A stretch of DNA of 64,000 bases from Pseudomonadales bacterium. GTDB taxonomy: Bacteria > Pseudomonadota > Gammaproteobacteria > Pseudomonadales > Ketobacteraceae. Positions 6,044 to 24,781 of the stretch are shown in pieces. A program made the position numbers and the translations under genes. The DNA is taken from positions 62,001 to 126,000 of the forward strand of contig PAPM01000025.1 in the NCBI GenBank assembly GCA_002708905.1, given 5' to 3'. The notes below the pieces were generated by a model. The model had not been told where the DNA came from. It saw only the letters and a list, made by a program, of their open reading frames with translations, and searched no databases. The number at the start of each line of letters is the position of its first letter. Positions within the stretch are counted from its first letter, which is position 1.

Positions 6044-6196
6044 CAGCCTCTCCCCTGTTCCCGGACACAGATCTCAGCACTGTTGCACGATGCCCGGGGG
6101 GCAAATTGATCTGGAACAAGGGTGAAAGGGATTTTACGAAACAGTCACATGAGTTAGGCTGTGGAAAACATAAAAATAAAAAGCGGGGGGAACATC

Positions 6197-7912
6197 ATGT
6201 CCAAACCCAAGCCGGATAAACCTGAACAGACAGGCCTGTCCCGTCGTGCCATTATCAAGGGCGCCCTGGCGGGCAGCGCGGTAGCAGCCACCAGCCTGAC
6301 CGGGCCAGCGCTGGCCGGTCCTGAAAGCGTGGCACGATATTTTGATGCCGTCGTCGTGGGCGGAGGGCTCTCCGGACTGGCCGCTGCCCTGGAGCTGAAA
6401 CGTCAGGGTAAGAGTGTACTGGTGCTGGAAGCCCGTAATCGGGTGGGTGGACGGGTTTTCAGTTTCAACAGTCCGGGACAGTTTCAACACCTGACCGTCG
6501 ACGGTGGTGCTGAATTTATCGGTGATCCCCAGTTGCGCATGATGGAATTGGCACAACGCTACAGCATCACCCCGGTACCCACGTTTAACCAGGGCCGAAA
6601 CATTTATTATCGCCGTGCCAAAGCCACTACCTTTAACGCCCAAGGACCGTTCGGTGCTGTTCCCATCGATTACGGCGTGTTCCAGCTGGCCATTGCCCAG
6701 GAAGCCATCCGGGCGGAGTCAAAACGTTTTCCGGTGGGCAAACCCTGGCTGCATCCCAAAGCGGAATACTACGATCAGATGAACTTTGAGCGCTGGATCA
6801 TCAAGCACATTGTGTCCAATGCCGCCCGCAACCTGATGCGGCTGTTCTGTTCTTCTTTGCTGAGTGTGCATCCCAGTGAAGTGTCGGCTTTGTTTATGTT
6901 TCACTATGTGGCAGCGGCCGGCCATGAGGATTTGAACGGCTCCCCGGAAGCCCTGTCCAACGTCGAGGCCAGGCTGAACGGCGCGGACATTGGTGGCGGT
7001 CAACAATATATTCTGGAGGGCGGCGCCCAACAGTTTGCCTGGGCTCTGCTGCAGGAGTTCTTAACCGACTACACCAGCAAGCCACTGGGGCAACCGCGTT
7101 ACGATACTAGCGTTCTGCCAGATTTCGACCGCAACAGCGAGCGCTACTTCGAATATCAATCCGGCCTGGCACTGCAACTGGAATCACCGGTGCGTAAAAT
7201 CAATAAAGATCAGGATAGTGGCATTTTTACCCTGCAATCCGATCGCCTTAGGGTGGAAACCCAGCAGGTTATCGTTGCTCTACCCCCGGCTGTCATTAAA
7301 AACATCGAGTTCAACCCCGCACTGCCGGCGGGCCGGATGCAACTGCATGATCGTATGCCCATGGGCTCCATTGCCAAGGCGATGATTTATTACGAGACCC
7401 CATTCTGGAAAGAGCAGGGCCTCACCGGCCAGGTCATCAGTGACTTAAGCGGCGACAGCGGACCCATCGATGTCATTTACGATAACTCTCCTCAACCCAC
7501 TGCTGATATGCCCAATCCCCCAGGCATTCTGATTGGATTTATCTCCGGCAAAGCCATGCGGGAGCTGGACAACCTGACCAACCAGGTTGATGCGGAGCAG
7601 GATGGCAGTGGCGATTTTTACCAGCAGGTGCGTGAGCGCTGCATTAACAGCCTGGTGCAATACTTCGGTGAAGACGCCGGCGCTGACCACGTTTTAGATT
7701 TTGCTTTGAACCGTTGGGATGATGAGATTTGGTCCCGGGGAGGGCCCACCGGCATCGGCACACCGGGAGTCATCACCGGCTTCTGGGAACAGCATTTACG
7801 GGAACCTTTGAATGGCCTCTACTGGGCCGGCACCGAAACTGCAGATTACTGGGCCGGCTATATGGAAGGTGCGGTGCGGGCAGGCATTCGTGCCGCCCGG
7901 GAGACACTGTAG
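6197..7912 (+). CDS. Tat-exported flavin amine oxidase
   Basis: 571 aa from the ATG at 6197, preceded by GGGGGGAA; the frame is open 12 codons further up but without a better start. A twin-arginine signal (LSRRAIIKG, then a short hydrophobic stretch ending GPALA) predicts folded export to the periplasm. The FAD-binding Rossmann motif VVGGGLSGLAAALEL and EARNRVGGRV lie near residues 50-85, and the C-terminal FAD loop GLYWAGTETADYWAGYMEGAV is canonical for the monoamine/polyamine oxidase family. The likely reaction is oxidative deamination of an amine or amino acid to aldehyde, ammonia and H2O2. It is the first of three genes on this strand, with a lipoprotein and an M20 hydrolase behind it. 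The substrate is unknown. Confidence 0.9.
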   Translation: MSKPKPDKPEQTGLSRRAIIKGALAGSAVAATSLTGPALAGPESVARYFDAVVVGGGLSGLAAALELKRQGKSVLVLEARNRVGGRVFSFNSPGQFQHLTVDGGAEFIGDPQLRMMELAQRYSITPVPTFNQGRNIYYRRAKATTFNAQGPFGAVPIDYGVFQLAIAQEAIRAESKRFPVGKPWLHPKAEYYDQMNFERWIIKHIVSNAARNLMRLFCSSLLSVHPSEVSALFMFHYVAAAGHEDLNGSPEALSNVEARLNGADIGGGQQYILEGGAQQFAWALLQEFLTDYTSKPLGQPRYDTSVLPDFDRNSERYFEYQSGLALQLESPVRKINKDQDSGIFTLQSDRLRVETQQVIVALPPAVIKNIEFNPALPAGRMQLHDRMPMGSIAKAMIYYETPFWKEQGLTGQVISDLSGDSGPIDVIYDNSPQPTADMPNPPGILIGFISGKAMRELDNLTNQVDAEQDGSGDFYQQVRERCINSLVQYFGEDAGADHVLDFALNRWDDEIWSRGGPTGIGTPGVITGFWEQHLREPLNGLYWAGTETADYWAGYMEGAVRAGIRAARETL

Positions 7913-7915
7913 GAT

Positions 7916-8350
7916 ATGAAAGGTGCGATTCTGCCGGCACTCATTGTTATGCTCCTGCTCAGTTGCGGCAAATCAGACAGCACGGAGCAGATCATCATAG
8001 CCAATATCACGGCCTTGGAAGCAGGCATCGAAGAAAAAGACCCTGAGCAGGTACTGGATTTGATCCATGAAAATTTTGGTACCCGCACCGGCGCCGACAA
8101 ACTGTGGATAAAACGAACCATGGCGTTCTACATGCTGAGACACCCTAATATCGAAATTGTCACCAGTAACCTGCATATCGATTTAGAGCCGGAGCAGCAA
8201 CCGCACACAGCCCATGCCCATTTTTCGGCACTGGTTACCGGCGGAGAGGGCCTGATTCCTGAGCAAGGCGCACTCTATCAGATTGAAACCGAATGGCGCC
8301 TGCAGGGAGACCAATGGCAACTGGTGTATGCAGACTGGCAACGACCTTGA
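7916..8350 (+). CDS. Small lipoprotein, NTF2/SnoaL-like
   Basis: 144 aa. It starts three bases after the amine oxidase stop, so the two are almost certainly co-transcribed. The N-terminus is a short lipoprotein signal with the lipobox LLSC (Cys about residue 17). The mature part begins with a long helix (IANITALEAGIEEKDPEQVLDLIHENF) and ends with beta strands finishing WRLQGDQWQLVYADWQ. That is the layout of NTF2-like (SnoaL/DUF4440-type) domains. I infer a periplasmic membrane-anchored helper for the oxidase. The fold is a guess and no function is known. Confidence 0.75.
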   Translation: MKGAILPALIVMLLLSCGKSDSTEQIIIANITALEAGIEEKDPEQVLDLIHENFGTRTGADKLWIKRTMAFYMLRHPNIEIVTSNLHIDLEPEQQPHTAHAHFSALVTGGEGLIPEQGALYQIETEWRLQGDQWQLVYADWQRP

Positions 8351-8406
8351 GTTTTAGAACCAGGCTCAGTAGAGTGACATTAATATTGGATTGAGGAGAG
8401 ATCACC

Positions 8407-9645
8407 ATTACTTATTCCATCAATATCGCTCGGGTCGAAAAGGACCTCTACGAACTGGCCAAATTCGGTTATAACGAGAAAGACAAAGGTATCTATCGGC
8501 AGGGTTTCACAACCGAAGACCGGGAAGCCCGGCACTGGCTGATGGATTACTTCAAACGCTGTGGCCTGCAAACTCACATGGATGGCGCAGGTAATGTCTG
8601 TGGCCGCTATGGTCCGGCAGACAAACCCGCCATTCTGATTGGCTCACACCTGGACTCCGTCCCGGCGGGGGGCATGTTCGACGGCACGTTGGGCGTAGTG
8701 GCAGGTTTGGAGTGTGTGCGTATTATTCAGGAGCAGGATATTCCCCTCACCTACCCCATTGAAATTATTGCCACCAGCGAAGAGGAAGGTCGTTTCGGTG
8801 GCATGTTGGGTGCCCAGGCACTCACCGGAAGTTTGACGCTGGATTGGTTGGAAAACGCCAAAGATCCCAGTGGAATGTCCCTGAAGCAGGCCATGGCGGA
8901 TCAGGGTTTGGACTACCATCAGGCCTTGCACGCCAAACGCAGCCCGGACAGCGTGAAAGCGTTTCTGGAATTGCACATCGAACAGGGCCCGGTGCTGGAA
9001 GCCAGCAAAAATACCATCGGCGTGGTGGAGGGCATCTCCGGTGTCTTCAAATGGCTGATCAAGTTCCTCGGCAAAGCGGACCACGCCGGCACCGCCCCCA
9101 TGGATTTACGCAGCGATGCGTTTATGGGGCTGGCGGACTTCGCCCATGAAATAAAACGTATCATCGATGAAAACGGCACGGACAAATCCCGCCTCACCAT
9201 CGGCCGGGTGGAACTGAAGCCCGGTTATGCCCACACGGTTCCCGGGGAAGCGGATTTCACTTTGGTGGGCCGGGATATGTCAGAAGACGTGATGCGGGAT
9301 CTGGCGGACAGTTGTCGCAAGGCCTTATCCGCCATTGCCCGTCGCCACCGCCTGATGTTTGAATATGAGCAGATGAGCTGGCTGGAACCCAAAGCCTGCT
9401 CGCAACAGATTATGGATGTCTTTGAGGGCACCACCCAGGATCTGGGCTACAGTTATCAGTTGATGCCCAGCGGCGCCGGACATGACGCCCAGTTCTTCAC
9501 GGATATTACGCCCACCGGGATGATTTTTATTCCCAGCGTAGGTGGCGTCAGCCACGCGCCGGACGAGTGGTCCCACTGGGAAGACGTGGAAAAAGGCTGT
9601 AACGTGTTGCTGAACAGCCTGATTCGTTTGCAGAAAACGCTCTAG
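8407..9645 (+). CDS. M20-family Zn hydrolase (N-carbamoyl-amino-acid/ureido hydrolase type) with apparent ATT start
   Basis: 412 aa if it starts at the ATT at 8407; the first in-frame ATG is not until 8542. Conserved family sequence (DKGIYRQGFTTEDREARHWL) lies upstream of that ATG, an in-frame TGA sits at 8392, and no ATG, GTG or TTG lies between. GAGGAG at 8393-8398 is eight bases from the ATT. Metal and catalytic motifs: GSHLDSVPAGGMFDG, SEEEGRFGG, LHIEQGPVLE, DHAGTAPM, PSGAGHDAQ and GVSHAPDEW. This is the allantoate amidohydrolase/beta-ureidopropionase/N-carbamoyl-L-amino-acid hydrolase branch, which cleaves ureido groups to CO2, NH3 and an amine. It is probably co-transcribed with the amine oxidase, and convergent by 13 bases with the carbamoyl/amide operon, whose product it may degrade. 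Confidence 0.88.
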   Translation: MTYSINIARVEKDLYELAKFGYNEKDKGIYRQGFTTEDREARHWLMDYFKRCGLQTHMDGAGNVCGRYGPADKPAILIGSHLDSVPAGGMFDGTLGVVAGLECVRIIQEQDIPLTYPIEIIATSEEEGRFGGMLGAQALTGSLTLDWLENAKDPSGMSLKQAMADQGLDYHQALHAKRSPDSVKAFLELHIEQGPVLEASKNTIGVVEGISGVFKWLIKFLGKADHAGTAPMDLRSDAFMGLADFAHEIKRIIDENGTDKSRLTIGRVELKPGYAHTVPGEADFTLVGRDMSEDVMRDLADSCRKALSAIARRHRLMFEYEQMSWLEPKACSQQIMDVFEGTTQDLGYSYQLMPSGAGHDAQFFTDITPTGMIFIPSVGGVSHAPDEWSHWEDVEKGCNVLLNSLIRLQKTL

Positions 9646-9658
9646 TCAGAGCCTTGAA

Positions 9659-11677
9659 CTACGCAGTAGCGTGCCAGCCCAGTTCATCGGCACGCTGCCG
9701 TGCCAGCTTCGGTAGATCCTGCGCCACAAAATGGTGATGCAACAATTGCACACCCAGCACATGGTTAATCACCGCATCCAGCTGGACTTTCGTCTCCCGG
9801 TCCATATTGGGATCTTCGTGGTCGGCAATCATTTTATCAATAGCGGCACTATCCAGCAGACCGGCGGCTTCCACTTTTTCCTTGCTGGCAAACTCATGCA
9901 TTAACGTCATCATGGATTGCCATTTCTTTTTGTCTGTGTGCGCAGGCGGCGCCATAAAGGCAAACTTCTGGCGTTTATACAAGATCTCCGGCAGCAGCCC
10001 TTTCATGGCTTCCCGCAACACGTACTTCTCCGTTGCCCCCTTGATACGCAATTGCGGTGGTACCGTGGTGGCAAACTTCGCCAGGTGGTGGTCCAGAAAT
10101 GCCGGGCGCGCCTCCATGGAATTAGCCATATCCACCCGATCACCACCCCAGGTCAGGATCTGCCCTTCCAGCATGGTTTTGATCCATACGTACTGGGCCT
10201 TATCCAGAGGATGGCGCCCATCCAGTTGACTACGATCGAAGGTAGCCGCGATCTGAGCACCGGCATCGTAGTCCTTGAGCTGGTTGCGCCACTCCGGATT
10301 CAACAGGGCCATGGCCGGCTCATGACAATGCAACCAGTTCTGCAGACAGGTGGGAGTGAAACCCACCACATCCGTCATGGCTTCAGAATTGAAATCCTCC
10401 CGCGGCAACATGGCACCACGGAACAGACTGTTACTTTCTTCCAGACTGGATTGCCATTCTTTTCTCAGTGTCGCAGGTAAGTCATCCAGACCATACAGGA
10501 ACATGTCCTTGCGGAAAGCAGGATAGCCGGCAAACAGTTCGTCGGACCCTTCACCGGTGAGCACCACCTTGTACTTGTTCTGCTTCACCGTTTCACTCAT
10601 CAACAGCTTGGCCACGGCCAGGGTATTGTAAATGGTCCGTTCCGTATGCCAGATGGTGCGGGCAAAATTATCGTAGAGATGATCAGCAGAGAGGGACAAC
10701 ACCACCTGGTCAGCGCCGGTCATATCCGCCATTTCCCGGGCAATAGGGGTTTCATCATAATCACTGCTGTCAAAGCCGATGGTGAACGCCTTTACCGGGT
10801 CCTGCCGGGCTGCCGCCGAAAGGCCCAGTATCGAACAGCTATCGATGCCGCCCGACAAATAACAACCCACAGGCACGTCGGCATTCAAGCGGTGCTGCAC
10901 AGCTTCCAGCAGGTGGTCACGCACCCCTTCGATGTAGTGGCTCTCATCGTGGTGATTCACATATTCACCGGCCACCGGAAAATCCATATCCCAGTATTTT
11001 TTCTGGTTAACCACCAGCTTGCCGTTTTTGCGCTGGATCTTGATCAAGTGTCCGGGGGGAACCTGATGTACGCCTTCAAACGCCGTACTGCCTGGCACCA
11101 TCACCTGAATCAACTGATGATAGGTGCCGGCTGCGGTCAGTTTCCGTTGCACCGACGGATGGGCAAACAATACTTTCAGTTCCGAGCCAAACACAATTCC
11201 GTCAGCAGTTTCACTCCAATACAACGGCTTGACACCAAACCGGTCCCGCACCAGATAGAGTGCATCTTCACTTTTATCAAACAAAGCAAAGGCGAACTCT
11301 CCGCGCAAATACTGCAGCGTTTTTTCCATGCCGTAGCGGGGATACAAATGCAGAATGATTTCCGAGTCGCTCTTGGTGGCAAAACGGGCACCATTGGATA
11401 CCAACATGGCACGAATACGCTGGAAATCGTAAAACTCACCATTATGCACCAGGTAATACTGTTGATCCTGGGAGATCAGCGGCTGTCGCCCGCGCTCTTC
11501 ATTGAGGTCGATGATGGACAGGCGTGCGTGGCTCAGGCCGATGCCGACACCCGCCGGATTGGTATAGCCGAAATTATCCGGACCTCGATGATACTGAATG
11601 GCGGCCATGTTGACCAAAACCTGAGAATCGATCGGTTGTTGGGGGTCGCGGTGGAACACACCGGCTATACCACACAT
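9659..11677 (-). CDS. Asparagine-synthase-type glutamine amidotransferase
   Basis: 672 aa. The N-terminal class II glutaminase domain begins with the catalytic Cys2 (MCGIAGVFHR) and carries YHRGPD, VHNGEFYDF and RDRFGVKPLY. The C-terminal ATP-pyrophosphatase domain has the PP-loop SGGIDS at 275-280, TGEGSDELFAGYPAFR at about 374-389 and MANSMEARPAFLDH. The family adenylates a carboxylate and replaces AMP with ammonia from glutamine, giving an amide. Ordinary AsnB proteins are near 550 aa, so this one is long. A clear AGGAGAG precedes the ATG. It is the last gene of the operon, 53 bases after an atypical carbamoyltransferase, which suggests amide formation on a carbamoylated amino acid rather than plain asparagine synthesis (inference). 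Confidence 0.9.
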   Translation of the reverse strand: MCGIAGVFHRDPQQPIDSQVLVNMAAIQYHRGPDNFGYTNPAGVGIGLSHARLSIIDLNEERGRQPLISQDQQYYLVHNGEFYDFQRIRAMLVSNGARFATKSDSEIILHLYPRYGMEKTLQYLRGEFAFALFDKSEDALYLVRDRFGVKPLYWSETADGIVFGSELKVLFAHPSVQRKLTAAGTYHQLIQVMVPGSTAFEGVHQVPPGHLIKIQRKNGKLVVNQKKYWDMDFPVAGEYVNHHDESHYIEGVRDHLLEAVQHRLNADVPVGCYLSGGIDSCSILGLSAAARQDPVKAFTIGFDSSDYDETPIAREMADMTGADQVVLSLSADHLYDNFARTIWHTERTIYNTLAVAKLLMSETVKQNKYKVVLTGEGSDELFAGYPAFRKDMFLYGLDDLPATLRKEWQSSLEESNSLFRGAMLPREDFNSEAMTDVVGFTPTCLQNWLHCHEPAMALLNPEWRNQLKDYDAGAQIAATFDRSQLDGRHPLDKAQYVWIKTMLEGQILTWGGDRVDMANSMEARPAFLDHHLAKFATTVPPQLRIKGATEKYVLREAMKGLLPEILYKRQKFAFMAPPAHTDKKKWQSMMTLMHEFASKEKVEAAGLLDSAAIDKMIADHEDPNMDRETKVQLDAVINHVLGVQLLHHHFVAQDLPKLARQRADELGWHATA

Positions 11678-11730
11678 AATGCTCTCCTGTTACTTCTTCA
11701 AATTAGAATCGGCAAACCGGATTCAGAACG

Positions 11731-12810
11731 TCACATCCAGACGTCCATAACCCGTTCAATTCGCTCACACATGCAGGTAAGCAGGGCCATCCGCAGAAAC
11801 ACCGCACCCCGGGCCTGGGAAAAATACCAATTGTGGGATGTTTCATCCAAATCCGACGACAGCTCATCACCCCGTGCCAACGGGTGCATCACGATGGCAT
11901 CCTTTTTCAAGGGAGAATTACGGTCCAGAACAAAGCGGGTGCCGTAGGATTCAAATCCATCGCCTTTCCAGGCAATCGCATTGATATACACCACATCAAT
12001 CTTGGGTAAGACCGATTCCATATCCGTGGTGGTCGCGATTTTTAATCCGGCCTGCTGCAGCTGCTCCAGCTGCCCTTTATCCCAGATGCGATCGCTGTCA
12101 TCATGAATGATGGTGACTTCCTCAAAACACTCCGGGAAAATGGCGACCATTTTTAACAAACTGCGTACCGTACGCATTTTGTTGGGCACACCAATGATGC
12201 CAAGACGTATCGGACTGAAACCGCTGCCCGGCTCACCCAGCATTTCGGGTTTCCATTTAAAAATGGTATAGAGATCGGCTAAAGCCTGGGTGGGATGCTC
12301 ATCCAATCCATTACCGGCGTTAATGATGGGAATGCGCAAGCTCCTCATCATTTCCTTCACCGAGGATTCATTGGTATCACGCAGAACAACGCAATCACCG
12401 TAATTGTTGAACATCTCCCCCACATCGGAGAGGGATTCACCTTTGGCAATCCCCGTGGTGGAACGATCCGTGATGGACATGATGTCCCCACCCAAACGAT
12501 GCCAGGCGCTCTCAAACGACAACCGGGTTCGGGTGCTGGGCTCATAGAAAGCACTGATCAGAATTTTACCCTGCAAAGGCGTACGAAAACGCTGCGGATT
12601 GGCTTCAAATTTTGCCGCCAGACGAAACAACTGCAACAGCACATCGCGATCAAACTGATCCGACGAAATAATATGTTGCGAAGAGAGTTGCTTCAGGTGC
12701 TCACCATCTTCGTGGATGGCTTTCAAAAGACCTTTGGGGTGGGCATCGCCATACACGTCAGGCACCTTGCGCTCAAACTCAACGTTACCCTCTTTCAAAT
12801 TACTCACCAT
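11731..12810 (-). CDS. Aspartate/ornithine carbamoyltransferase family protein with altered acceptor site
   Basis: 359 aa, about 45 residues longer at the N-terminus than catalytic PyrB. Carbamoyl-phosphate residues are kept: STRTR (92-96), the 80s-type loop TTGIAKGES, R144 in VVLRDTNE, HPTQ (172-175) and R213 in KMRTVRS. Where E. coli PyrB has TRVQKER, whose Arg and Gln bind the aspartate side-chain carboxylate, this protein has NAIAWKG (277-283). The HPLPR loop with its cis-proline is HPLAR (309-313). It should therefore transfer carbamoyl to an amine other than that of aspartate (inference). Its ATG overlaps the end of the 40-aa microprotein by seven bases. No PyrI or PyrC gene is nearby. 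It is not the housekeeping pyrB in my judgement. Confidence 0.88.
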   Translation of the reverse strand: MVSNLKEGNVEFERKVPDVYGDAHPKGLLKAIHEDGEHLKQLSSQHIISSDQFDRDVLLQLFRLAAKFEANPQRFRTPLQGKILISAFYEPSTRTRLSFESAWHRLGGDIMSITDRSTTGIAKGESLSDVGEMFNNYGDCVVLRDTNESSVKEMMRSLRIPIINAGNGLDEHPTQALADLYTIFKWKPEMLGEPGSGFSPIRLGIIGVPNKMRTVRSLLKMVAIFPECFEEVTIIHDDSDRIWDKGQLEQLQQAGLKIATTTDMESVLPKIDVVYINAIAWKGDGFESYGTRFVLDRNSPLKKDAIVMHPLARGDELSSDLDETSHNWYFSQARGAVFLRMALLTCMCERIERVMDVWM

Positions 12811-12926
12811 AATGTACCCCGCTTCCAGTCAACCAGCAGTAGTCCCAGCAGAACCAGGGGAGAAACACAGGTCACCAACAGTGCTCCCCCCACCAACAAC
12901 TCAAATAACGCTTCACTTATCGGCAC
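12804..12926 (-). CDS. 40-aa membrane microprotein, probable symporter partner
   Basis: A GTG at 12926 starts one base after the symporter stop, with GGAG (inside the symporter's last codons) nine bases upstream. The frame runs 40 codons and its stop overlaps the carbamoyltransferase ATG (ATGGTGA). The product is a single hydrophobic helix, about residues 8-33, with a short acidic N-terminus (PISEALFE) and a basic/aromatic tail (DWKRGTLW). Overlap at both ends argues that it is translated. Small accessory membrane proteins are known next to SSS transporters (for example YjcH with ActP and YhdT with PanF), though this one resembles neither clearly. Function inferred only from position. Confidence 0.65.
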   Translation of the reverse strand: MPISEALFELLVGGALLVTCVSPLVLLGLLLVDWKRGTLW

Positions 12927-12927
12927 G

Positions 12928-14349
12928 TTATTTCTCCATACGCTGCAAGCGTTCCCAGTTAAACTCTTCGTTATACAACGCCAGACCAAACAAACATACC
13001 ACCAGCGACACCAGGCAGGATGTTAAGGCCGCCACGTAAAAACCAATCTGTACGAAAGCAATCAATCCCAACAGGGTACCCAGCAACATGGCCAGGCCGG
13101 CGTACAACCCACCGAGACGGGGCCTGTACAATCCAAATACGATGGGCCAGATGGTACTGGCCACAAATGCTCCGGTGAAATTCAGCAGTTCTCCCAGGGT
13201 GGTCATACGCGGTAGGCACAGCACCCAGGTCAACAGTCCCAGCCCCAGAATGACCCACTTCCCAACCTTGAACAGGTGTTCGTTACTGGCACCCGGCTTA
13301 AGTATTCCACGATAGATGTCCTCAGTCAGCAAATCGCTGGTGGCCGCCAACAATGAGTCCAAACTGGACGCCAATGCGGAAAACACCACGATGAAGACGA
13401 ACACGGCACCCACACTACCTAGCAATTTTGCGGCCACCAGAGGCCCCACCATGTCCGGGCTGGGTGGATAAATATTCAGTGCGGGGGCTGCCAGGGCGAT
13501 AAAGCCGGTCACAATGGGAATGGGCAACCATAGCAATCCGGAAATCAGGTAGGCCTTTTTCCCGATCCCTTCGCGAAACGCAAAGGCGCGCGACCACCAG
13601 ACGTTGGAATGGAAGATCTCACCGATACCAAAGAAAATGTTATTGAACAGGAACATAATGGCGGCAGGAAACAGCAGATTGAGTAATTGGGGCTGTTCCT
13701 GGCTGACGGTTTCATAAATCCTGGTCAACCCTACGTCCTGCCAGCAGACATAGCCGATGAACAACACACCACATAAAATGATGAGCGTCTGGATGAAGTC
13801 TGTGGCAATTACCGCTTTGAGTCCACCCAGCAAGGTATAACCCACGCAGATCGCCAGAATAACCGTCATGCCCACGTGATAATCCAGCCCGCTGAGGGAG
13901 TGCAGCAGAATGCCCCCCGCCATCCCCAGGCTGATCAACCAACCCATGGCGTAACAGAACGACACTACAAGAAACACATACCAGGCACCCCGGCCATAAC
14001 GTACACGGATAAAGTCGCCGCAGGTAAACCCCTTCGGCATCAGAGCCTTAATCCGCTTGGCCATGGGTGCAAACAGAATCAGCCCCAGCGCCGCCATGGA
14101 ATATCCCACCATGCCCCAGACGCCAAACTGGTAGGTGAGCTGGGGTGCCACCAGCGTAGTATTGCTGGTTACCCAGGTGGCCATCGCCGTAGCCGAAGCC
14201 AGTGCCAACCCCACGTTGCGCCCGGCCAGCATAAAGTCGTCGACAGTACGATTACGACGCCCCAGCCACCAGCCAAAGCTGACCCAGGCCAAGCCAAACA
14301 AAACGAGGATAACGATTGCGGTTTGGGTAGAGATTTGTGCAGCGAACAT
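12928..14349 (-). CDS. Sodium:solute symporter (SSS family), DUR3/urea-like branch possible
   Basis: 473 aa with about 13 membrane spans, the usual SSS architecture. Characteristic stretches are GRRNRTVDDFMLAGRN after the first span, TWVTSNTTLVAPQLTYQFG, KGFTCGDFIRVRYG, and the sodium-site region FSALASSLDSLLAATSDLL. The N-terminal third (unwound helix followed by YQFGVWG) resembles DUR3-type urea/polyamine symporters more than PutP or PanF, but I cannot confirm this without a tree. It follows the Fn3-like protein by 20 bases and is followed after one base by the membrane microprotein. In this operon it may take up a ureido or amide solute, or its precursor. Confidence 0.85.
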   Translation of the reverse strand: MFAAQISTQTAIVILVLFGLAWVSFGWWLGRRNRTVDDFMLAGRNVGLALASATAMATWVTSNTTLVAPQLTYQFGVWGMVGYSMAALGLILFAPMAKRIKALMPKGFTCGDFIRVRYGRGAWYVFLVVSFCYAMGWLISLGMAGGILLHSLSGLDYHVGMTVILAICVGYTLLGGLKAVIATDFIQTLIILCGVLFIGYVCWQDVGLTRIYETVSQEQPQLLNLLFPAAIMFLFNNIFFGIGEIFHSNVWWSRAFAFREGIGKKAYLISGLLWLPIPIVTGFIALAAPALNIYPPSPDMVGPLVAAKLLGSVGAVFVFIVVFSALASSLDSLLAATSDLLTEDIYRGILKPGASNEHLFKVGKWVILGLGLLTWVLCLPRMTTLGELLNFTGAFVASTIWPIVFGLYRPRLGGLYAGLAMLLGTLLGLIAFVQIGFYVAALTSCLVSLVVCLFGLALYNEEFNWERLQRMEK

Positions 14350-14369
14350 AGAATCCGTTTCTGATTATT

Positions 14370-14819
14370 TTATGAATCTGAGCGAGTGAAACGGAACAGC
14401 GTGACCACCAGAGAACCAAACAAAGCTGCACCGATCGAAAACAAAAGAGAAGCCGAACGCAGAGACCGATGCTCAACGTCAAAGCGTACCGTGTTTGAGA
14501 GTGAAGCACCGGTGTCACTCAGTAATCGGGCGAAATAAACCCCGTCCTCAAACCCGCTGAGATGAACCTGATCCTGACCGGTAAGCTGCAATGACCGCAT
14601 CACCTGATCAAATTCCCGATCGCGCCCCACCTGCAATGTAACGGAGCCATCGCCCAAATCCTTCCAACTCAAAGTAATGAAGCCCTCGCTTACTTTCTGA
14701 GCACTGGCAATCAGGTTCTCAGCAGGTGCTCCGATTACGAAGGGGGACTGCACCAAAAATGCACAGACAAGCAGCATTTTTGCCACATTATTGAAATAAA
14801 AGGGGGATTTGGGAGCCAT
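14370..14819 (-). CDS. Fn3-like protein with signal peptide and C-terminal membrane anchor
   Basis: 149 aa. Residues 1-30 form a signal peptide (hydrophobic core MLLVCAFLVQSPFVIG, cleavage after GA). Residues about 32-115 look like one fibronectin-type-III-like beta sandwich: SEGFITLSWKDLGDG, then VTLQVGRDREFD and DGVYFARLLSDTG, which have the spacing of Fn3 strands. A single membrane span follows (LLFSIGAALFGSLVVTLFRF) with a short polar tail, placing the Fn3 domain in the periplasm. It is the first gene of the operon ending at the amidotransferase. I infer a periplasmic sensor or binding accessory of the symporter; no homologue with known function is recognised. Confidence 0.7.
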   Translation of the reverse strand: MAPKSPFYFNNVAKMLLVCAFLVQSPFVIGAPAENLIASAQKVSEGFITLSWKDLGDGSVTLQVGRDREFDQVMRSLQLTGQDQVHLSGFEDGVYFARLLSDTGASLSNTVRFDVEHRSLRSASLLFSIGAALFGSLVVTLFRFTRSDS

Positions 14820-14920: not shown

Positions 14921-17900
14921 TCAGGGGTACTGCTGCTCCTGCGCTTCCAGCTTGCGCGCCACATCCCCCGGCGAACCGGTCTTACGTGCCAGCAACTCGT
15001 ACGCCACGGGGACCACATACAGGGTAAACAGGGTTGCCGCCAGGGTGCCGGCCAGTACCACCACACCGATCACAAGACGGGTTTCCGCCCCGGCCCCACT
15101 GGAGGCAATCAGGGGGATGGAACCGGCTGCCGTGGTAATACCGGTAATCAGTATGGGACGGAAACGCACCTGGGTTGCCTCAATGATGGCTTGTTTGAAT
15201 TCCTCTCCCTGGTCACGCAGCTGGTTGGCAAACTCAACAATCAGTATTCCGTTTTTGGAGGCCAACCCCACCAGCATCATCAAGCCGATCTGGGAATAAA
15301 TATTCAAACTGCTCCCTGTCAGGTACAACCCCAATAATCCACCACACATGGCTAAAGGCACGGTCAGCATAATAATAAAAGGATGCACATAACTTTCGAA
15401 TTGCGCCGCCAGCACCAGGAAGGTCACCATTACCCCCAGCAGGAAAATAAACAGCACACTGTCGCCGGAAAATTTATAATCCCGGGACTGGCCTTTATAA
15501 TCAATATTCACATTGGCCGGGAGATGTTCCCTCACCAACCCTTCCAGGTAGTTGAGTGCTTCCCCCAGCGACAGGTTATCCGCCAGATTGGCCTCGAGCG
15601 TAATCGCGCGCACCCGGTTGTAGCGATTCAACGATGTGGCCCCGGCAAACTCTTCCAGTTTCACCAGATTCGCCAACGGCACCAATTGATCCAGCTTTTC
15701 CGAGCGCACGTATATATTCTGCAGACTGATAGGAGTGCTCTGGTTATCCCGCACTCCCTCCAAAATCACGTCGTATTCTTCACCCTGGTCGTTGTAGGTG
15801 GTAACGCGACGGGAACCGAGCATGGTCTCCAGTGTGCGCCCCATATTGCCAACGGACACACCCAGGTCAGCAGCCCGATTATAATCAATCACTACATTCA
15901 ACTGCGGCTGGGTCTCTTTTAAATCCCAGTCCATGCCTACCAGGCCGGGGTTATCCGCTTCAATCTTTGCCGTCAGGATGTCACGCCACTGAGCCAACTC
16001 CTCATAGGTTCCACCGCCGAGCACAAACTGCACCGGCTTCTGCAAGCCACCACCGAATCCTTGCCGCATAATGGGGAACGCATTAACACCGGGCAGGTCC
16101 GCCAGTTTTTGTCGCACCTCGTTGATAATGACGAAGGCACCTCGGCGTTTACTCCAGTCATTCAGCAACACAATTACCACCCCCGTATTGAAGTTGGCCA
16201 CATTGCCCCAACCACGAGGCGTACGCACCAACAAGCGGGTAATCTCATTGTTCTCCACATAGGGCATCATGCGCTGTTCGATCTCATCCATATACTTGGT
16301 CATGTAGTCGAACGTTGCCCCTTCCGGGCCATTTACAATCAGAAAAAAGGCACCACGATCCTCCCGCGGCGCGTACTCCGAAGGAATGGCCTTAAACAGG
16401 TAATAGCTGGCGGCCATCAAACCGATAAAGCCCAACACCACAACCCAGGGCGCGCGCATACAGAACACGATGGAATGTCCATAACCGGTCTTGAGCCAAT
16501 CAAACAGAACGTCCACCATGCGCACAACCGGACTGTGTTGCTCATTGGCACGCAAAACTTTTGAGGCCAGCATAGGGGATAAGGTGAGCGCAATCAGCGT
16601 GGAAAAACACACCGCCGCTGTCATGGTGAGTGCGAACTCGGAAAACAACCGCCCCAGATCGCCCTGTAAAAACGAGATGGGAACAAACACAGCCACCAGC
16701 ACCAGGGTGGTGGCAATTACCGCAAAGCCCACCTGACGTGCACCCCGATAGGCCGCCAGCAACGGTGGTTCATCATATTCCTGCATGCGGCGTACGATGT
16801 TTTCCAGTACCACCACCGCGTCATCAACCACCAGACCGATCGCCAGCACCAGGGCCAACAGCGTGAGCAGGTTGACGGAGAAACCAAACATCAGCAGTGC
16901 AATAAAAGTAGCCACTATGGAGACCGGTACCGTCACCGCCGGCACCAGCATGGCCCTGGCACTGCCCAGGAACAAATAGATCATCAACACCACCAGACCA
17001 ATGGCGATGGCCAATGTGGAGTAAACCTGGTTAACCGCACCTTCCACAAACACCGACGAATCATAACTTTGCTCCAGGCTCATGTGCGACGGGAGCACAG
17101 CATTGACCCGGTCCCGCTCTGCTTTGGCTGCACGGGTTACCTCAATGGTGTTGGCCGTAGACTGCTTGATAATACCGATGCCGACCTGGGGAATGCCGTT
17201 ACCACGAAACACAATGCGGCTTTCCTCAGTACCGCGCTCCACCCGCGCCACATCCCCCAGGCGCACCAGATAGCCGTTTTCGCCCCGCGCCAGCACCAGG
17301 TTACGAAAGTCTTCTGCACTGGCAAAGGCCCGTTGCACCCGCACCGTTAGCTGCCGGGTTTGGCCCTCGATGGCCCCTGCGGGCAACTCAACGTTCTCAG
17401 CCCTTAACGCCGCTTCCACATCATTGGCGGTTAAGCCACGGGCCGCCAATTGATTCCGATCAAGCCAGACCCGCATGGCATAACGCTGGGCACCACCCAC
17501 GATAATCCGTGCCACACCATTCAAAGTGGAAAAGCGATCCACCAGGTAACGATCCGCATAATCCGACAACTCCGGAACCGTCATGCCCTCCCCCACCAGG
17601 TTCAGCCACATGATTACGTCATCATCGCCGGACTCCTTGCGAATCTCGGGTGGATCGGCTTCTTCCGGCAGATCGTTAGCGATACCGGCCACCCGATCGC
17701 GCACATCATTGGCTGCAGCATCAATGTCCCGGTCCACATCAAACTCAATGGTGATACGGGAATTGCCGTCACTGCTGACGGAAGCCACATACTTGATGCC
17801 TTCCACACCGGCAATGCGCTCTTCGATAATCTGGGTAATGCGGGTTTCCACCACCGCTGCTGCAGCACCACGATAGCCGGTACTGATGGTTACCACTGGC

Positions 17901-18025
17901 GGATCGATACGGGGATATTCGCGCAGGGTAAGGCGATCAAATGCCACCAGGCCAAAGGCAATCAACAACAAAGAAATAACCGACGCGAACACCGGTCGCT
18001 TGATGGATAGGTCGGATATCAGCAT
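14921..18025 (-). CDS. RND efflux permease (HAE1/AcrB-like)
   Basis: 1034 aa, full length for an AcrB-type trimeric inner-membrane proton/drug antiporter. The N-terminus MLISDLSIKRPVFASVISLLL is the classic first span, and TM4 carries the proton-relay pair in IGLVVDDAVVVLENI. The two large periplasmic porter loops are present, and the C-terminal spans include GITTAAGSIPLIASSGAGAE. The sequence type (LREYPRIDPPVVTI, ETRITQIIEERIAGVEGI) is close to the MexK/VexK-like clade. It follows the adaptor gene by two bases. No outer-membrane channel gene is in this operon, so it must use a TolC encoded elsewhere. Substrate unknown. Confidence 0.93.
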   Translation of the reverse strand: MLISDLSIKRPVFASVISLLLIAFGLVAFDRLTLREYPRIDPPVVTISTGYRGAAAAVVETRITQIIEERIAGVEGIKYVASVSSDGNSRITIEFDVDRDIDAAANDVRDRVAGIANDLPEEADPPEIRKESGDDDVIMWLNLVGEGMTVPELSDYADRYLVDRFSTLNGVARIIVGGAQRYAMRVWLDRNQLAARGLTANDVEAALRAENVELPAGAIEGQTRQLTVRVQRAFASAEDFRNLVLARGENGYLVRLGDVARVERGTEESRIVFRGNGIPQVGIGIIKQSTANTIEVTRAAKAERDRVNAVLPSHMSLEQSYDSSVFVEGAVNQVYSTLAIAIGLVVLMIYLFLGSARAMLVPAVTVPVSIVATFIALLMFGFSVNLLTLLALVLAIGLVVDDAVVVLENIVRRMQEYDEPPLLAAYRGARQVGFAVIATTLVLVAVFVPISFLQGDLGRLFSEFALTMTAAVCFSTLIALTLSPMLASKVLRANEQHSPVVRMVDVLFDWLKTGYGHSIVFCMRAPWVVVLGFIGLMAASYYLFKAIPSEYAPREDRGAFFLIVNGPEGATFDYMTKYMDEIEQRMMPYVENNEITRLLVRTPRGWGNVANFNTGVVIVLLNDWSKRRGAFVIINEVRQKLADLPGVNAFPIMRQGFGGGLQKPVQFVLGGGTYEELAQWRDILTAKIEADNPGLVGMDWDLKETQPQLNVVIDYNRAADLGVSVGNMGRTLETMLGSRRVTTYNDQGEEYDVILEGVRDNQSTPISLQNIYVRSEKLDQLVPLANLVKLEEFAGATSLNRYNRVRAITLEANLADNLSLGEALNYLEGLVREHLPANVNIDYKGQSRDYKFSGDSVLFIFLLGVMVTFLVLAAQFESYVHPFIIMLTVPLAMCGGLLGLYLTGSSLNIYSQIGLMMLVGLASKNGILIVEFANQLRDQGEEFKQAIIEATQVRFRPILITGITTAAGSIPLIASSGAGAETRLVIGVVVLAGTLAATLFTLYVVPVAYELLARKTGSPGDVARKLEAQEQQYP

Positions 18026-18027
18026 AT

Positions 18028-19092
18028 TCAGATACCCGAAGCGTTTGCAGAGAAAGCCGGTGAAGCCTCCACCACTTTCACCAAGGCACCGTCCCTGAGC
18101 TTAAGGCTGCCATCCACAACCACCTGCTCCATGGGCGCCAGTCCTTTTACTATTTCGACCCGCCCCAGCAGGCGCGTTCCGATCAACACCCGGCGGCGTT
18201 GCGCCTGCATTCCATCTGCCTGCGGCACCACGACAAATACATAATGCTCGTTTCGATCCTGCACTAAAGCGGATTCGGAAATCACAATGGCCTCACGGGG
18301 GTTGCTCTGCAATTTCACCTCCATCAGCAGACCGGCTTTCAACCGGCTCCCGCTGTTATCCAGAATCGCCCGCACCGTCACCGAGCGGGACACCGGATCC
18401 ACCTGGTTATCCACCGACTCCACCACGCCATCAAACACGGCATTGTCCAGCGCGCGGGCCTTGGCCTGAATGGCAACACCCGGCTTCAGGGAAGCCAAAA
18501 ACAAAGAGGGCACGCTGAAGTCGAGTTTCATACGGCGGTCATCCACCAGTGTGGTAATGACCTCGCCGGGAGAGACAAAAGCACCGCGACTGACATTACG
18601 CAGCCCCACCACCCCGGAGAACGGCGCCCGCACCAGCCGGTTTTCCAGACGGGATTCAATGGCAGCCACCCGGGCACGGGCCACATAAAATTCTCTTTGC
18701 TTTTCATCCAGCAGGGATTGAGACGCGTCGCCACGCTTGGCCACCGCTTTGATTCGATCCAGCTGCGACTGGGCTTCATCCAAGGTATATCGGGCTTCCT
18801 GCAGAACCGCCTGTTCTTCCGAGCTGTCCAGCTCCACCAGCACGGCGCCTTGCTTCACCCGCTGTCCGCTTTCAAAGTGAATGGCACGGATGGTTTCCGC
18901 CACATTCGCCGTCAACACCACGGCCTCGTTGGCCTTGAGCGTTCCCAGAGCCTCCAGGGGATCGGCGATGGACTCAGTCTGCACCGGCCTGACCACGACA
19001 TCCAGCGCCGGGGCGGCGGCCCACGCGCACGAAGGCAGCAGCAACAGGATTACAACACGCATACACACCAATAGGGAACACTCAGCCCGCAT
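18028..19092 (-). CDS. RND periplasmic adaptor (membrane fusion protein)
   Basis: 354 aa. The ATG at 19092 has GGAG nine bases upstream; an internal ATG at 19062 directly before the hydrophobic signal core is a possible alternative. The signal peptide ends around SCAWAAAP. The order is that of HlyD/AcrA-type adaptors: beta-barrel strand, lipoyl half (GTLKANEAVVLTANVAETI), a hairpin of about 60 residues (EEQAVLQEARYTLDEAQSQLDRI), the second lipoyl half (RAPFSGVVGLRNVSRGAFVSPGE) and the beta-barrel domain (LDFSVPSLFLASL). It links the permease to an outer-membrane channel. Two-gene operon with the permease. Confidence 0.92.
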   Translation of the reverse strand: MRAECSLLVCMRVVILLLLPSCAWAAAPALDVVVRPVQTESIADPLEALGTLKANEAVVLTANVAETIRAIHFESGQRVKQGAVLVELDSSEEQAVLQEARYTLDEAQSQLDRIKAVAKRGDASQSLLDEKQREFYVARARVAAIESRLENRLVRAPFSGVVGLRNVSRGAFVSPGEVITTLVDDRRMKLDFSVPSLFLASLKPGVAIQAKARALDNAVFDGVVESVDNQVDPVSRSVTVRAILDNSGSRLKAGLLMEVKLQSNPREAIVISESALVQDRNEHYVFVVVPQADGMQAQRRRVLIGTRLLGRVEIVKGLAPMEQVVVDGSLKLRDGALVKVVEASPAFSANASGI

Positions 19093-19251: not shown

Positions 19252-20649
19252 TCAGGTCCGAGCCAGCCTTTCACCTGCAAGCAGCACCGTCAACCCCAGC
19301 AGCATGGCGGGCATACCTTCATAGACAACCGAATGGAGCCCCGCAAAGCGCCACAGCAATGACACGCCCAGCCCTGTAAGCACGGCGATAATCGCCAGGG
19401 TTTGCCCTGGACGCCGCCCGATACAAAGCACCAGTAACAAGGGAGCGAAGGCACTGGCCAGACCGGACCAAGCCAGAATCACCAGGCTGAACACAGACTC
19501 CTGGTTCAGCAACGCCCAGGCCAGTGCCAGAGCGCAGACCAGGGCCGTAATCATTTTTATCTCGCGGGTATTTTCGATGTTGTGGGGCAACACGTCATGG
19601 GTGATAGCGGCTGAACAACTCAGGATCAAGGAGTCGGCCGTAGACAGGGTGGCCGCAAAAATGCCGGCCAACACCACCCCGACAAAAACTGGCGGGAATA
19701 ATTGTTGCGCCATGGTGGGCAAGGCGAGTTCCGCGTCAAATGCGGCCGGATCACCCAGATAAACACGGGACAGCATACCGACCGCGGTCGCCATGGCATA
19801 AAAAGCGATAAACCAGAGGTAATACCAGGCTCTTGCCCGCAGCATACTGCGGTGATCATCCAAGGCCATAAAGCGGACCATGATGTGAGGTTGGCCGATA
19901 ACCGACATACCGGCAAACAGCCAGCTCACGGCAAACACCAGCCCACCGGCCAGTCCCGGCAACACCAGATCCTTGGGAAACCAGTCCAGAAACCCGTCCA
20001 CCGACGACATCAACGTCAGCGATTCCGACACCCCGCCCAGTGAGAGTGTCGCCACCACCAGCAGCATACCCATGGCCACAATCATCACCAGGGACTGAGC
20101 CGCATCCGTCCAGATGGAGGCCCGTATGCCACCGGCCCAGCAATAGGCCAGCACCAGGGTCGCCCCCATTACTGCACCACCCCATGAAGGCCAGCCAAAC
20201 AACACCTGCAGAGCCTTGCTGCCGGCAACCAGCTGAGCACTGGCATAGGCCAATAAGAATACCAGGGACACGATTCCAATAAGCCGCTGCAACGCATCAT
20301 GTTTACCGCCATACCAGTTACTCAGCACGCCAGCATAACTGACTTCGTCACAATGCTGAGTGGCTTTGCGCAAACGCTGGTGAACAAAAATGGATGCCAG
20401 GAAATCCCCCAGTATCCAGCCGAACATAATCCAGATCGCCGCCAACCCTGTGGCATAGGTGTAACCAATAACACCTATGAACATATAGCCACTGTTATTG
20501 GTGGCTACCGCCGACAGTCCCACCAGAGCAGGATGCACCGAACTGCTGGCCAGATAATAATCCTGCTTGGTATGTCTGCTCTGCCTGACGGAACTCAGGC
20601 CGATTACCACGAACACCCCCAGGAAAAACAGAAAACTGGCCACTACCAA
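19252..20649 (-). CDS. Sodium:solute symporter (SSS, PutP-like)
   Basis: 465 aa starting at a TTG (20649) with AAGGA eight bases upstream; the next codons are GTA and GTG, so the TTG is the best-supported start. The fold is SSS: GLSSVRQSRHTKQDYYLASSS after the first span, SAVATNNSGYMFIG, a WLFAGMSVIGQPH motif typical of PutP-type proline/osmolyte symporters, and ILSCSAAITHDV near the sodium site. It lies directly downstream of the ectoine aspartokinase, separated by a terminator. It may therefore be expressed partly with the ectoine genes and import an osmolyte such as proline or ectoine (inference). Confidence 0.88.
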   Translation of the reverse strand: MVVASFLFFLGVFVVIGLSSVRQSRHTKQDYYLASSSVHPALVGLSAVATNNSGYMFIGVIGYTYATGLAAIWIMFGWILGDFLASIFVHQRLRKATQHCDEVSYAGVLSNWYGGKHDALQRLIGIVSLVFLLAYASAQLVAGSKALQVLFGWPSWGGAVMGATLVLAYCWAGGIRASIWTDAAQSLVMIVAMGMLLVVATLSLGGVSESLTLMSSVDGFLDWFPKDLVLPGLAGGLVFAVSWLFAGMSVIGQPHIMVRFMALDDHRSMLRARAWYYLWFIAFYAMATAVGMLSRVYLGDPAAFDAELALPTMAQQLFPPVFVGVVLAGIFAATLSTADSLILSCSAAITHDVLPHNIENTREIKMITALVCALALAWALLNQESVFSLVILAWSGLASAFAPLLLVLCIGRRPGQTLAIIAVLTGLGVSLLWRFAGLHSVVYEGMPAMLLGLTVLLAGERLART

Positions 20650-20708: not shown

Positions 20709-22151
20709 TTAACAGGCCAGGCAGATCGCTCGCCCATGATCATGCACTTCCACCAACTGGCCGTGCAACGCTTTGATGGCATCGGCGTAATCGTCTTCAT
20801 CCACGATGAATTGCATGTCCACCTGGCGCATGGACTGGTGCATGGCCAATACGCTGATATTGCGTTCTGCCAAAGCAGCTACAGTTTGTGCCAACATACC
20901 CGGCACCTGCATGTCACTACCAATGGCGGAAACAATGGCTATTTTCTTTTGATTGATTTCGGCATCACCAAAACGCTCTTCCAGCGCAGCCCGAATACGC
21001 TTTACGGTCTTCAGGTTAGTGGAGAGATAATGGGTAATGGTGTTGGCGTTAATATCTTTGGAAACGATATAACCGTTGAAGCGTTTTATCGTTGCCAGGA
21101 TCTCCTGATCATAACGATCAATATTCCCCGCCATGTCCTGATCAAACACTTCGATGGCATAGACCCCGCGGCAACCGGCAATGATCTCCACCCGGGGTGA
21201 CTCACTGACGTAATCGCTGGTGATCAGCGTGCCCGTATGTTCCGGCTCAAAGGTGTTTTTCACCCGCAGGGGGATGCTGTGTTTGCGCAAGCCTTTTGCC
21301 GCCTTGGGATGGATGGCTTCCATTCCCAAATTGGCCAATTGGTCCGCCACATCGTAATTGGTGCGTCCTATGGGAACGGCATTGGCTTCTCCCACCAAGC
21401 GGGGATCAGCACTACTGAGATGAAATTCTTTGTGGATGACAGCTTCCCGGGCACCAGTCAGTACGGCAATTCGACTAAACGTCATTTCGCTGTAGCCGCG
21501 ATCAAAGGTGGACATCAAGCCCTGATCACTATGGGCATAACCGGTGGCGATGGGGAGCTGAGAATTCAGGTCCAGATCCTTGAATGCCGCTTCGATCCGT
21601 TGATCCAACGACATGTGCTGCGCCGAACGCCAACCGGTCAGATCCACAAAGCAGGCATTAACGCCATCCTGTTGCAGCAGCTTCGCCATATTCCAGGCGC
21701 TGTGGGCCTCACCGATACTGGCCAGCATTTCCCGCACGGTGTGCAAGTGCGCATCCAGGGCAAAGTGGCCATGCTGGCACAGGCGACCCAGGTCCGTCAG
21801 ACAACGCTCGGCATCTTCCAAGCGCTCCAGGACGAAAGCATTGGCTTCCTGCAGGGCAAGCTCATCGGTAAACAGATCACCGTTGATGCCCAGCAGCTCC
21901 TGCTTCAGCGCTGACAACGCATCACGCCAGCCGGCTTCACTGACACCGCGGGAAAACAGCTCGTACACTCCGGGCTGCCCCGTCTTTTTGTGTTCCAGCA
22001 ATTGATTGGTGACACCACCGTAGGCAGAGACCACAAAAATCCGGTTATAACGCACTGCCCCACGTTCGGGCCCCAAAATGATATTGTCACGTACAGCGGC
22101 GTAATTGCTCATGGAAGTGCCGCCAATCTTCTCAACACTGTGAAAAGACAT
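20709..22151 (-). CDS. ask: Aspartate kinase of the ectoine operon (Ask_Ect)
   Basis: 480 aa. It phosphorylates L-aspartate, the first step towards aspartate-semialdehyde and ectoine, in the cytoplasm. The N-terminal kinase domain opens with HSVEKIGGTSMSNY, the Ask_Ect version of the KFGGTS motif, and includes ATGYAHSDQGLMSTFDRGYSE. The C-terminal half carries two ACT-type regulatory repeats (EIIAGCRGVYAIEVFDQDM and KKIAIVSAIGSDMQVPGM). Ask_Ect isoenzymes are typically less sensitive to feedback and belong to ectABC-ask operons. It follows ectC by seven bases, with GAGGAA upstream of the ATG. Confidence 0.95.
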   Translation of the reverse strand: MSFHSVEKIGGTSMSNYAAVRDNIILGPERGAVRYNRIFVVSAYGGVTNQLLEHKKTGQPGVYELFSRGVSEAGWRDALSALKQELLGINGDLFTDELALQEANAFVLERLEDAERCLTDLGRLCQHGHFALDAHLHTVREMLASIGEAHSAWNMAKLLQQDGVNACFVDLTGWRSAQHMSLDQRIEAAFKDLDLNSQLPIATGYAHSDQGLMSTFDRGYSEMTFSRIAVLTGAREAVIHKEFHLSSADPRLVGEANAVPIGRTNYDVADQLANLGMEAIHPKAAKGLRKHSIPLRVKNTFEPEHTGTLITSDYVSESPRVEIIAGCRGVYAIEVFDQDMAGNIDRYDQEILATIKRFNGYIVSKDINANTITHYLSTNLKTVKRIRAALEERFGDAEINQKKIAIVSAIGSDMQVPGMLAQTVAALAERNISVLAMHQSMRQVDMQFIVDEDDYADAIKALHGQLVEVHDHGRAICLAC

Positions 22152-22158
22152 TACAGAT

Positions 22159-22563
22159 TTATTCCTCTATTGATTCCGCTTCCAGTTCATAGGCGCCTTC
22201 GGCATTGTGCACTTCTTTGCCTGTTAAAGGCGGATTGAACACACAGGCCATCTTCATTTCTTCAAAGGCGCGCAACACGTGCTTGTCGTTTTGGTCCAGG
22301 ATGTAAATAGTGCCCGGCTCGATGGGGTATTTCTTCCCGTCGGCCAGGGTTTCCACCTCACCACGCCCCGACATGCAGAACACCGACTCCAGGTGATTCT
22401 GATAATGCATCTGGAAATCAGCACCCTTGTAGATGGTGGTGATATGAAACGAAAAGCCCATGTTGTCGTCTTTCAGCAACAGGCGGGTGCTGTCCCAGTT
22501 ACCATTGGGATCGACAATTTTACGCCCGCTGTTTTCGGCTTCTTGTAGCTTTCTTACGATCAT
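22159..22563 (-). CDS. ectC: L-ectoine synthase
   Basis: 134 aa cupin. It cyclises N-gamma-acetyl-L-2,4-diaminobutyrate to ectoine with loss of water. Family motifs are evident: [23 protein letters not shown] at the N-terminus (shown here in part as the opening of EctC), FHITTIYKG, the metal-cupin region [29 protein letters not shown], and a C-terminus ending in acidic residues. AGGAA precedes the ATG. It lies between the EctA-EctB fusion and ask in the usual ectABC-ask order. No ectoine hydroxylase (ectD) is in the window. Confidence 0.97.

Positions 22564-22598: not shown

Positions 22599-24781
<2,183 letters not shown>

Follow-up and report, generated by a model that had tools for sequence, protein, structure and literature searches.

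The 64,000-nt stretch analyzed here (the window, positions 62,001 to 126,000 of contig PAPM01000025.1 from a Ketobacter-like Pseudomonadales bacterium whose closest named relative is a Ketobacter sp.) carries a gene cassette that most likely makes and recycles a neutral N-carbamoyl amino-acid amide, with carbamoylglutamine amide (CGA) as the foremost candidate. Gene content including the M20 family member, conservation and co-occurrence of the genes, loss of aspartate-binding residues in the carbamoyltransferase (CTase), presence in the genus known to produce CGA, and osmotic neighbors agree and argue for a biosynthetic and recycling cassette. They support the pathway for a carbamoylated amino-acid amide that a first-pass annotation had proposed for this DNA.

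The more specific version, in which CGA itself is made and recycled as an osmolyte, is modestly favored. The CTase would move the carbamoyl group of carbamoyl phosphate onto the amino group of glutamine, and an AsnB-type amidotransferase, with ATP and glutamine-derived ammonia, would then turn the alpha-carboxyl group into an amide, masking both charged groups. A sodium/solute symporter of the SSS family, with a 40-aa protein and an Fn3-like protein as partners, would recapture the solute, and upon down-shock an M20 hydrolase would break it down, preceded in the larger branch of its family by an amidase that strips the amide. We infer both the amino acid and the induction by salt from sequence and neighbors. 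If the proposal holds, two genes explain CGA, which was reportedly described in 1991 from one purple sulfur bacterium, and they occur in many bacteria in which the solute has not been searched for. The gene set, found also in many other marine and salt-loving bacteria, is a candidate for the missing recipe of CGA. Genomes apparently poor in osmoprotectants could then be re-read, and the carriers form a precise list of organisms for nuclear magnetic resonance and liquid chromatography-mass spectrometry laboratories.

Gene content and conservation

Every gene named earlier for the operon and its convergent neighbor was found in the window by open reading frames (ORFs) and profile searches. On the minus strand, reading from 14819 to 9659, the cassette consists of an Fn3-like protein (14370-14819; signal-like N-terminal helix, one Fn3 domain, and C-terminal transmembrane (TM) helix), an SSS-family sodium/solute symporter (12928-14349; PF00474 and TIGR00813), a 40-aa single-TM protein with a GTG start (12804-12926), the CTase (11731-12810; PF02729 and PF00185), and the AsnB-type glutamine-dependent amidotransferase (9659-11677; TIGR01536). 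The gene of an M20 N-carbamoyl-amino-acid amidohydrolase (8407-9645; NF006771), of the type with histidine in its motif (H-type, AHTVPG), is convergent to them on the plus strand. The genes are closely spaced: the 40-aa gene starts 1 nt past the symporter stop and, at its other end, runs 7 nt into the CTase gene.

A one-genome-per-species scan returned 422 CTase relatives, of which the best 80 were kept; later additions of genomes brought the loci that were read to 115. In 114 of these, AsnB immediately follows the CTase on the same strand, as expected from the predicted co-occurrence across genomes, and in 97 the SSS gene immediately precedes the CTase on the same strand. All 98 loci holding both SSS and CTase also encode a homologue of the 40-aa protein, recognizable by the C-terminal signature D-x-(K/R)-x3-LW. 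Conservation of the gene set is thus far beyond chance. The M20 gene is found near the cassette in 73 loci, and its four arrangements among the H-type loci favor a functional link over inherited gene order.

Among the best 80 of the 422 relatives, carriers include Kangiella, Pleionea, Idiomarina, Pseudidiomarina, Alteromonas, Bowmanella, and Pseudoalteromonas, as well as Nitrosomonas halophila, Kordiimonas, Hyphomicrobiales, and Cyanobium. In Cyanobium (L084 and L087), SSS, CTase, and AsnB occur in this order with enzymes 61-63% identical, which suggests that the cassette was transferred to picocyanobacteria.

The interval had originally been drawn from 7916. Its cassette part stands, while the 144-aa secreted protein at 7916-8350 does not belong to the cassette and was seen only in two close relatives (L008 and L077). 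A flavin oxidoreductase gene (6161-7912) and RND/MFP genes (14921-19092) were likewise set aside, having been seen beside the cassette only in close relatives.

The two proposed biosynthetic enzymes

The CTase had been called atypical, and the description is apt: it falls in a clade apart from PyrB and ArgF and scores below the cut-offs of the aspartate carbamoyltransferase (ATCase) models. Membership in the superfamily of ornithine carbamoyltransferase and ATCase was found with PF02729 (139.7 bits) and PF00185 (51.3 bits), and the STRT carbamoyl-phosphate motif (S92-T95) is invariant. Its best NCBIfam match is to an ATCase model, but scores against TIGR00670 and NF002032 were 196.6 and 196.2 bits, below cut-offs of 236.95 and 263, respectively. 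In the tree, cassette CTases form a single clade with 100% support and long branches, separate from the PyrB and ArgF of the same genomes. Plain PyrB or ArgF identity was rejected, as the CTase belongs to this separate clade and the genome of the window holds its own PyrB and ArgF as two other carbamoyltransferases.

Residues of the CTase were mapped by alignment onto the E. coli ATCase chain 1ezz. The window protein retains the ATCase residues S52-T53-R54-T55, K84, R105, H134, Q137, R167, and P266-L267. In its 240s loop, R229 and Q231 are replaced by A278 and A280, and all 26 aligned members have small residues at these positions. These members (alignment A1) span Gammaproteobacteria, Alphaproteobacteria, Nitrosomonas, and Cyanobium and have in common the near-invariant 240s-loop signature YIN[AST]I[AS]W. 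In ATCase, the aspartate moiety is bound by R229 and Q231, and a carboxylate by R167. As R167 is kept and R229 and Q231 are gone, the substrate likely has a free alpha-carboxyl group and an uncharged, neutral side chain. Glutamine fits and is the proposed substrate, although another neutral amino acid is possible. The cassette enzyme shares the fold and the carbamoyl-phosphate site of PyrB but differs in the residues for the side-chain carboxylate. If the proposed substrate is right, this textbook family would gain a new activity, the carbamoylation of a neutral amino acid.

The AsnB of the window starts with MCGIAG (nucleophile Cys2) and has the PP-loop SGGIDS. It passed the cut-off of TIGR01536 (435 bits over 267.1) and remained below that of the XrtA amidotransferase model TIGR03108 (407.7 bits). 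Cassette AsnBs are 62-65% identical to it, compared to at most 35% for other AsnB paralogues of the same genomes. Amidation of the alpha-carboxyl group is the activity proposed for this enzyme.

Presence in Ectothiorhodospira and choice of amino acid

Ectothiorhodospira marismortui is the reported source of CGA (PMC1224877). When photosynthetic reaction centers were searched for across the class, six phototrophs emerged, of which only the two of genus g114 have the CTase. Within the order of g114, the CTase occurred in 41 of 47 genomes, and in 38 of the 38 near-complete ones. The HiPIP of one g114 genome matches PDB 1hpi, from Ectothiorhodospira vacuolata, without a difference over 70 residues. 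In the sister genus g200, the octaheme nitrite reductase of G393 is likewise the same over 523 residues as PDB 4q0t, the enzyme of Thioalkalivibrio nitratireducens. Because of the identical HiPIP and the sister genus Thioalkalivibrio, g114 was assigned to Ectothiorhodospira. A genome survey groups the two genera by their betaine genes (PMC7824335).

The gene set was sought in Ectothiorhodospira, as the first-pass annotation had advised, and 10 of 10 assigned genomes carry it in the order M20, isochorismatase-type amidase, CTase, AsnB. CGA is the expected product of the latter two enzymes. The SSS, Fn3-like, and 40-aa proteins were not found in the Ectothiorhodospira genomes, where the amidase is present, and the core of the cassette is therefore CTase and AsnB, to which differing modules for recycling and transport are added. 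In one of the genomes (G390, L173, 7654-8657), the CTase is split over two frames by mutation or sequencing error. A fructokinase-like gene adjoins the cassette in Ectothiorhodospira and Thioalkalivibrio (L143 and L165-L178), in many cases on the other strand.

The choline pathway is reported to be lacking in E. mobilis and E. marismortui (PMC7824335). Since no betA above threshold was found in G336, G385, and G387, these three probably include the CGA-producing species or a close relative of it, with G336 and G387 as the best candidates. The same survey of Ectothiorhodospira genomes lists CGA as a possible solute and names no genes (PMC7824335), and neither an earlier assignment of CGA biosynthesis genes nor a salt-induction data set was found in the open-access literature, in line with the earlier statement that no assigned genes were known. 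CGA is a known solute tied to the cassette through genome comparison only.

Several points weigh against CGA as the product. The genome of E. marismortui DSM 4180 could not be pinned outright among the ten, and the lost CTase residues exclude aspartate better than they name glutamine. No report of CGA was found for the carriers Kangiella, Idiomarina, Thioalkalivibrio, and Alteromonas, whose solutes have perhaps not been looked at closely, or whose product may differ. At one locus of the 115 (L170, G426), the CTase stands without an adjoining AsnB, SSS, or M20 gene.

In one alternative, the same chemistry acts on another amino acid, perhaps depending on the lineage, and yields the N-carbamoyl amide of asparagine, alanine, glycine, or others. 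The residue changes remove aspartate recognition and single out no amino acid, and in reviews CGA is reported only from E. marismortui. However, the identical 240s-loop signature in 26 diverse members makes one substrate for all likely, and among solutes of this type only the glutamine compound is known. Another amino acid is therefore regarded as rather unlikely.

Osmotic neighbors

CGA as an osmolyte is consistent with genes found beside the cassette in other lineages. In G261, the first two genes past AsnB encode a glycine/sarcosine N-methyltransferase (GSMT; 500 bits over a cut-off of 350, E 7e-128 to the solved GSMT) and a relative of the sarcosine/dimethylglycine methyltransferase, which together represent the betaine pathway. 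A gene for an MscS channel lies past AsnB in three lineages, namely several Ectothiorhodospira genomes, genus g278, and G033.

The nearby ectoine genes noted earlier were recovered at 20.7-24.5 kb of the window, and the ectoine gene group ends 4-5 kb from the cassette. On the minus strand, an ectA-ectB fusion (22599-24473) exceeds the cut-offs of TIGR02406 and TIGR02407 in one ORF of 624 aa, with EctA at residues 13-168 and EctB at 191-602, and is followed by ectC (22159-22563; ectoine synthase, NF009806) and an aspartokinase (20709-22151; aspartate kinase, NF006614). Divergent to ectAB, a MarR-type, EctR-like regulator is encoded on the plus strand (24782-25282). The MarR-type protein EctR represses ectoine genes (PMC5924519), and no NCBIfam EctR model matched the regulator of the window. 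This regulator shares 48% identity with a MarR protein encoded close to the cassette in L010, and homologues of 45-52% identity occur near the cassette in L010-L012, L016, L076, L079, L082, L216, and L220. Carriers with such homologues near the cassette belong to Pleionea, Kangiella, Aliikangiella, Kordiimonas, Thalassotalea, and two further families. Homologues of 27-32% identity are encoded beside the cassette in Ectothiorhodospira and Thioalkalivibrio.

Two transporters adjoin the ectoine genes and their regulator. A second, PutP-like SSS symporter (19252-20649, minus strand) follows the ectoine genes and is a possible ectoine or proline carrier. An AmtB-type ammonium transporter (25544-26827, plus strand) adjoins the MarR gene, with a possible link to nitrogen for N-rich solutes.

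The neighbors also bear on whether the cassette could make a specialized or signaling N-carbamoyl amino-acid derivative that is not an osmolyte. AsnB-type enzymes also serve lasso peptides and macrolactams, whose profiles gave weaker matches here, and the distribution is patchy, with the CTase in 23 of 369 class members (6%) of an even sample. Against this stand the ectoine, betaine, MscS, and EctR-like neighbors in separate lineages and the CTase in every near-complete genome of the haloalkaliphilic group (38 of 38), and no non-ribosomal peptide synthetase, precursor peptide, or resistance genes were seen in the annotated stretches. A signaling or specialized product is accordingly judged improbable.

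Proposed recycling and transport

The M20 protein of the window passed the cut-offs of NF006771 (532.9 bits over 399) and TIGR01879 (360 bits over 204), and its nearest PDB chain is 3n5f, an N-carbamoyl-L-amino acid hydrolase (E 4.7e-78). Against the ErtE model NF058540 it reached 382.2 bits (384.8 for Ectothiorhodospira), below the cut-off of 520. ErtE, an L-N-carbamoylase/N-carbamoyl-L-glutamate amidohydrolase, has the family and most active-site residues in common with the cassette M20, but the amidase-free cassette branch has His for Asn in the xNxxPG motif. The reading frame has a TGA at 8392 and no ATG, GTG, or TTG before 8542, and homology to relatives begins at around 8413. The gene therefore probably starts at the ATT at 8407, behind GAGGAGA, rather than at the first ATG at 8542. 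In the relative L077, an ATT is found in a like place of the M20 gene behind CAGGAG.

At 35 loci, an isochorismatase-type amidase (PF00857) is encoded beside an M20 gene with the motif xNxxPG (N-type), whereas 37 other loci and the window are without such an amidase and have xHTxxG. The sole exception to this partition is a distant M20 protein in Cyanobium. The nearest solved chains of the amidase are cysteine hydrolases and N-carbamoylsarcosine amidohydrolase. It is possible that the amidase removes the amide and the N-type M20 then the carbamoyl group, with the H-type M20 acting on the amide itself. In the tree, most of the split coincides with one branch of the M20 family; a switch that arose separately at least once in Alphaproteobacteria (L083 next to L085) is no more than suggestive as to the substrate. 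The carboxylate-binding arginine is Arg291 of RrCbetaAA (PMC10952681), which aligns with R289 of the M20 protein. As this arginine is kept in both types and the split is mostly that of one branch, the H/N residue was rejected as proof of the substrate. The M20 gene was also rejected as an essential part, since it is not near the cassette in most Idiomarinaceae, and it was missing genome-wide in four of six tested genomes without M20 beside the cassette.

The SSS symporter probably serves in uptake or recapture of the solute. The Fn3-like protein matched no Pfam or NCBIfam family, but an AlphaFold model built with 30 homologues (mean pLDDT 88.9) has a helix-7 strands-helix fold, and its best PDB matches are all Fn3 domains (top E 3e-4, probability 1.00), which backs the anchored Fn3-like protein described earlier. 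By tblastn, roughly half of the loci have a homologue at this position, and an ORF cluster is present in 72 of 80 loci. The Fn3-like protein is a probable accessory protein of the symporter. The 40-aa protein is probably a small symporter subunit, translationally coupled to the CTase. Short TM proteins encoded beside SSS symporters are known from YhdT-PanF and DUF485-ActP. The cassette resembles these pairs, but its protein has only 40 aa, no Pfam match, and its own C-terminal signature, and is accompanied by a protein with an Fn3 fold.

The hydrolases and the symporter would also suit a catabolic cassette that imports ureido or hydantoin compounds and degrades them, the CTase running in reverse to recover carbamoyl phosphate, as amidases of the M20 and isochorismatase types often take part in ureide degradation. 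This is quite improbable: the most constant partner of the CTase is the ATP-using AsnB, M20 can be missing genome-wide, the SSS gene was not found in Ectothiorhodospira, and neither a hydantoinase nor a carbamate kinase was seen.

Relation to the NAGGN system

The proposed pathway to CGA resembles that of N-acetylglutaminylglutamine amide (NAGGN), in which a TIGR03104 amidotransferase is accompanied by an acetyltransferase and a peptidase. Both would yield a neutral, doubly masked glutamine derivative through an AsnB-type amidotransferase, with a hydrolase for recycling. The cassette is unlike NAGGN in having a carbamoyltransferase in place of the acetyltransferase/ligase, an M20 hydrolase, and its own symporter set. 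The AsnB of the window scored 305.6 bits against TIGR03104 (306.8 in Ectothiorhodospira), below the cut-off of 570.1. Four carriers (G033, G120, G393, and G261) hold a separate canonical TIGR03104 protein with 902-968 bits besides the cassette AsnB, and since both systems coexist in at least four genomes, the cassette is, judged by these profiles, a system beside NAGGN, and its AsnB is not the NAGGN synthase.

Although both follow a similar logic, joining a transferase of acyl type to an AsnB-type amidotransferase and a hydrolase, a variant of NAGGN is extremely improbable and membership was ruled out by the TIGR03104 cut-off and the coexisting true NAGGN gene, with the CTase in the place of an ATP-grasp/GNAT partner, which was not seen. 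The full proposal of a two-enzyme pathway to the solute that is unrelated to NAGGN, with recycling by amidase and N-type M20 or by an H-type M20 acting on the amide, is put forward tentatively.

Other observations

No structural RNA or riboswitch was matched by Rfam in the window, and in promoter and terminator scans promoters were no more numerous than in shuffles. In G000, the genome of the window, contig C18 (locus L094) carries psbA and an rbcL-like ORF, which are algal chloroplast DNA; judged from these genes, it is a contaminant or co-culture contig within that assembly.

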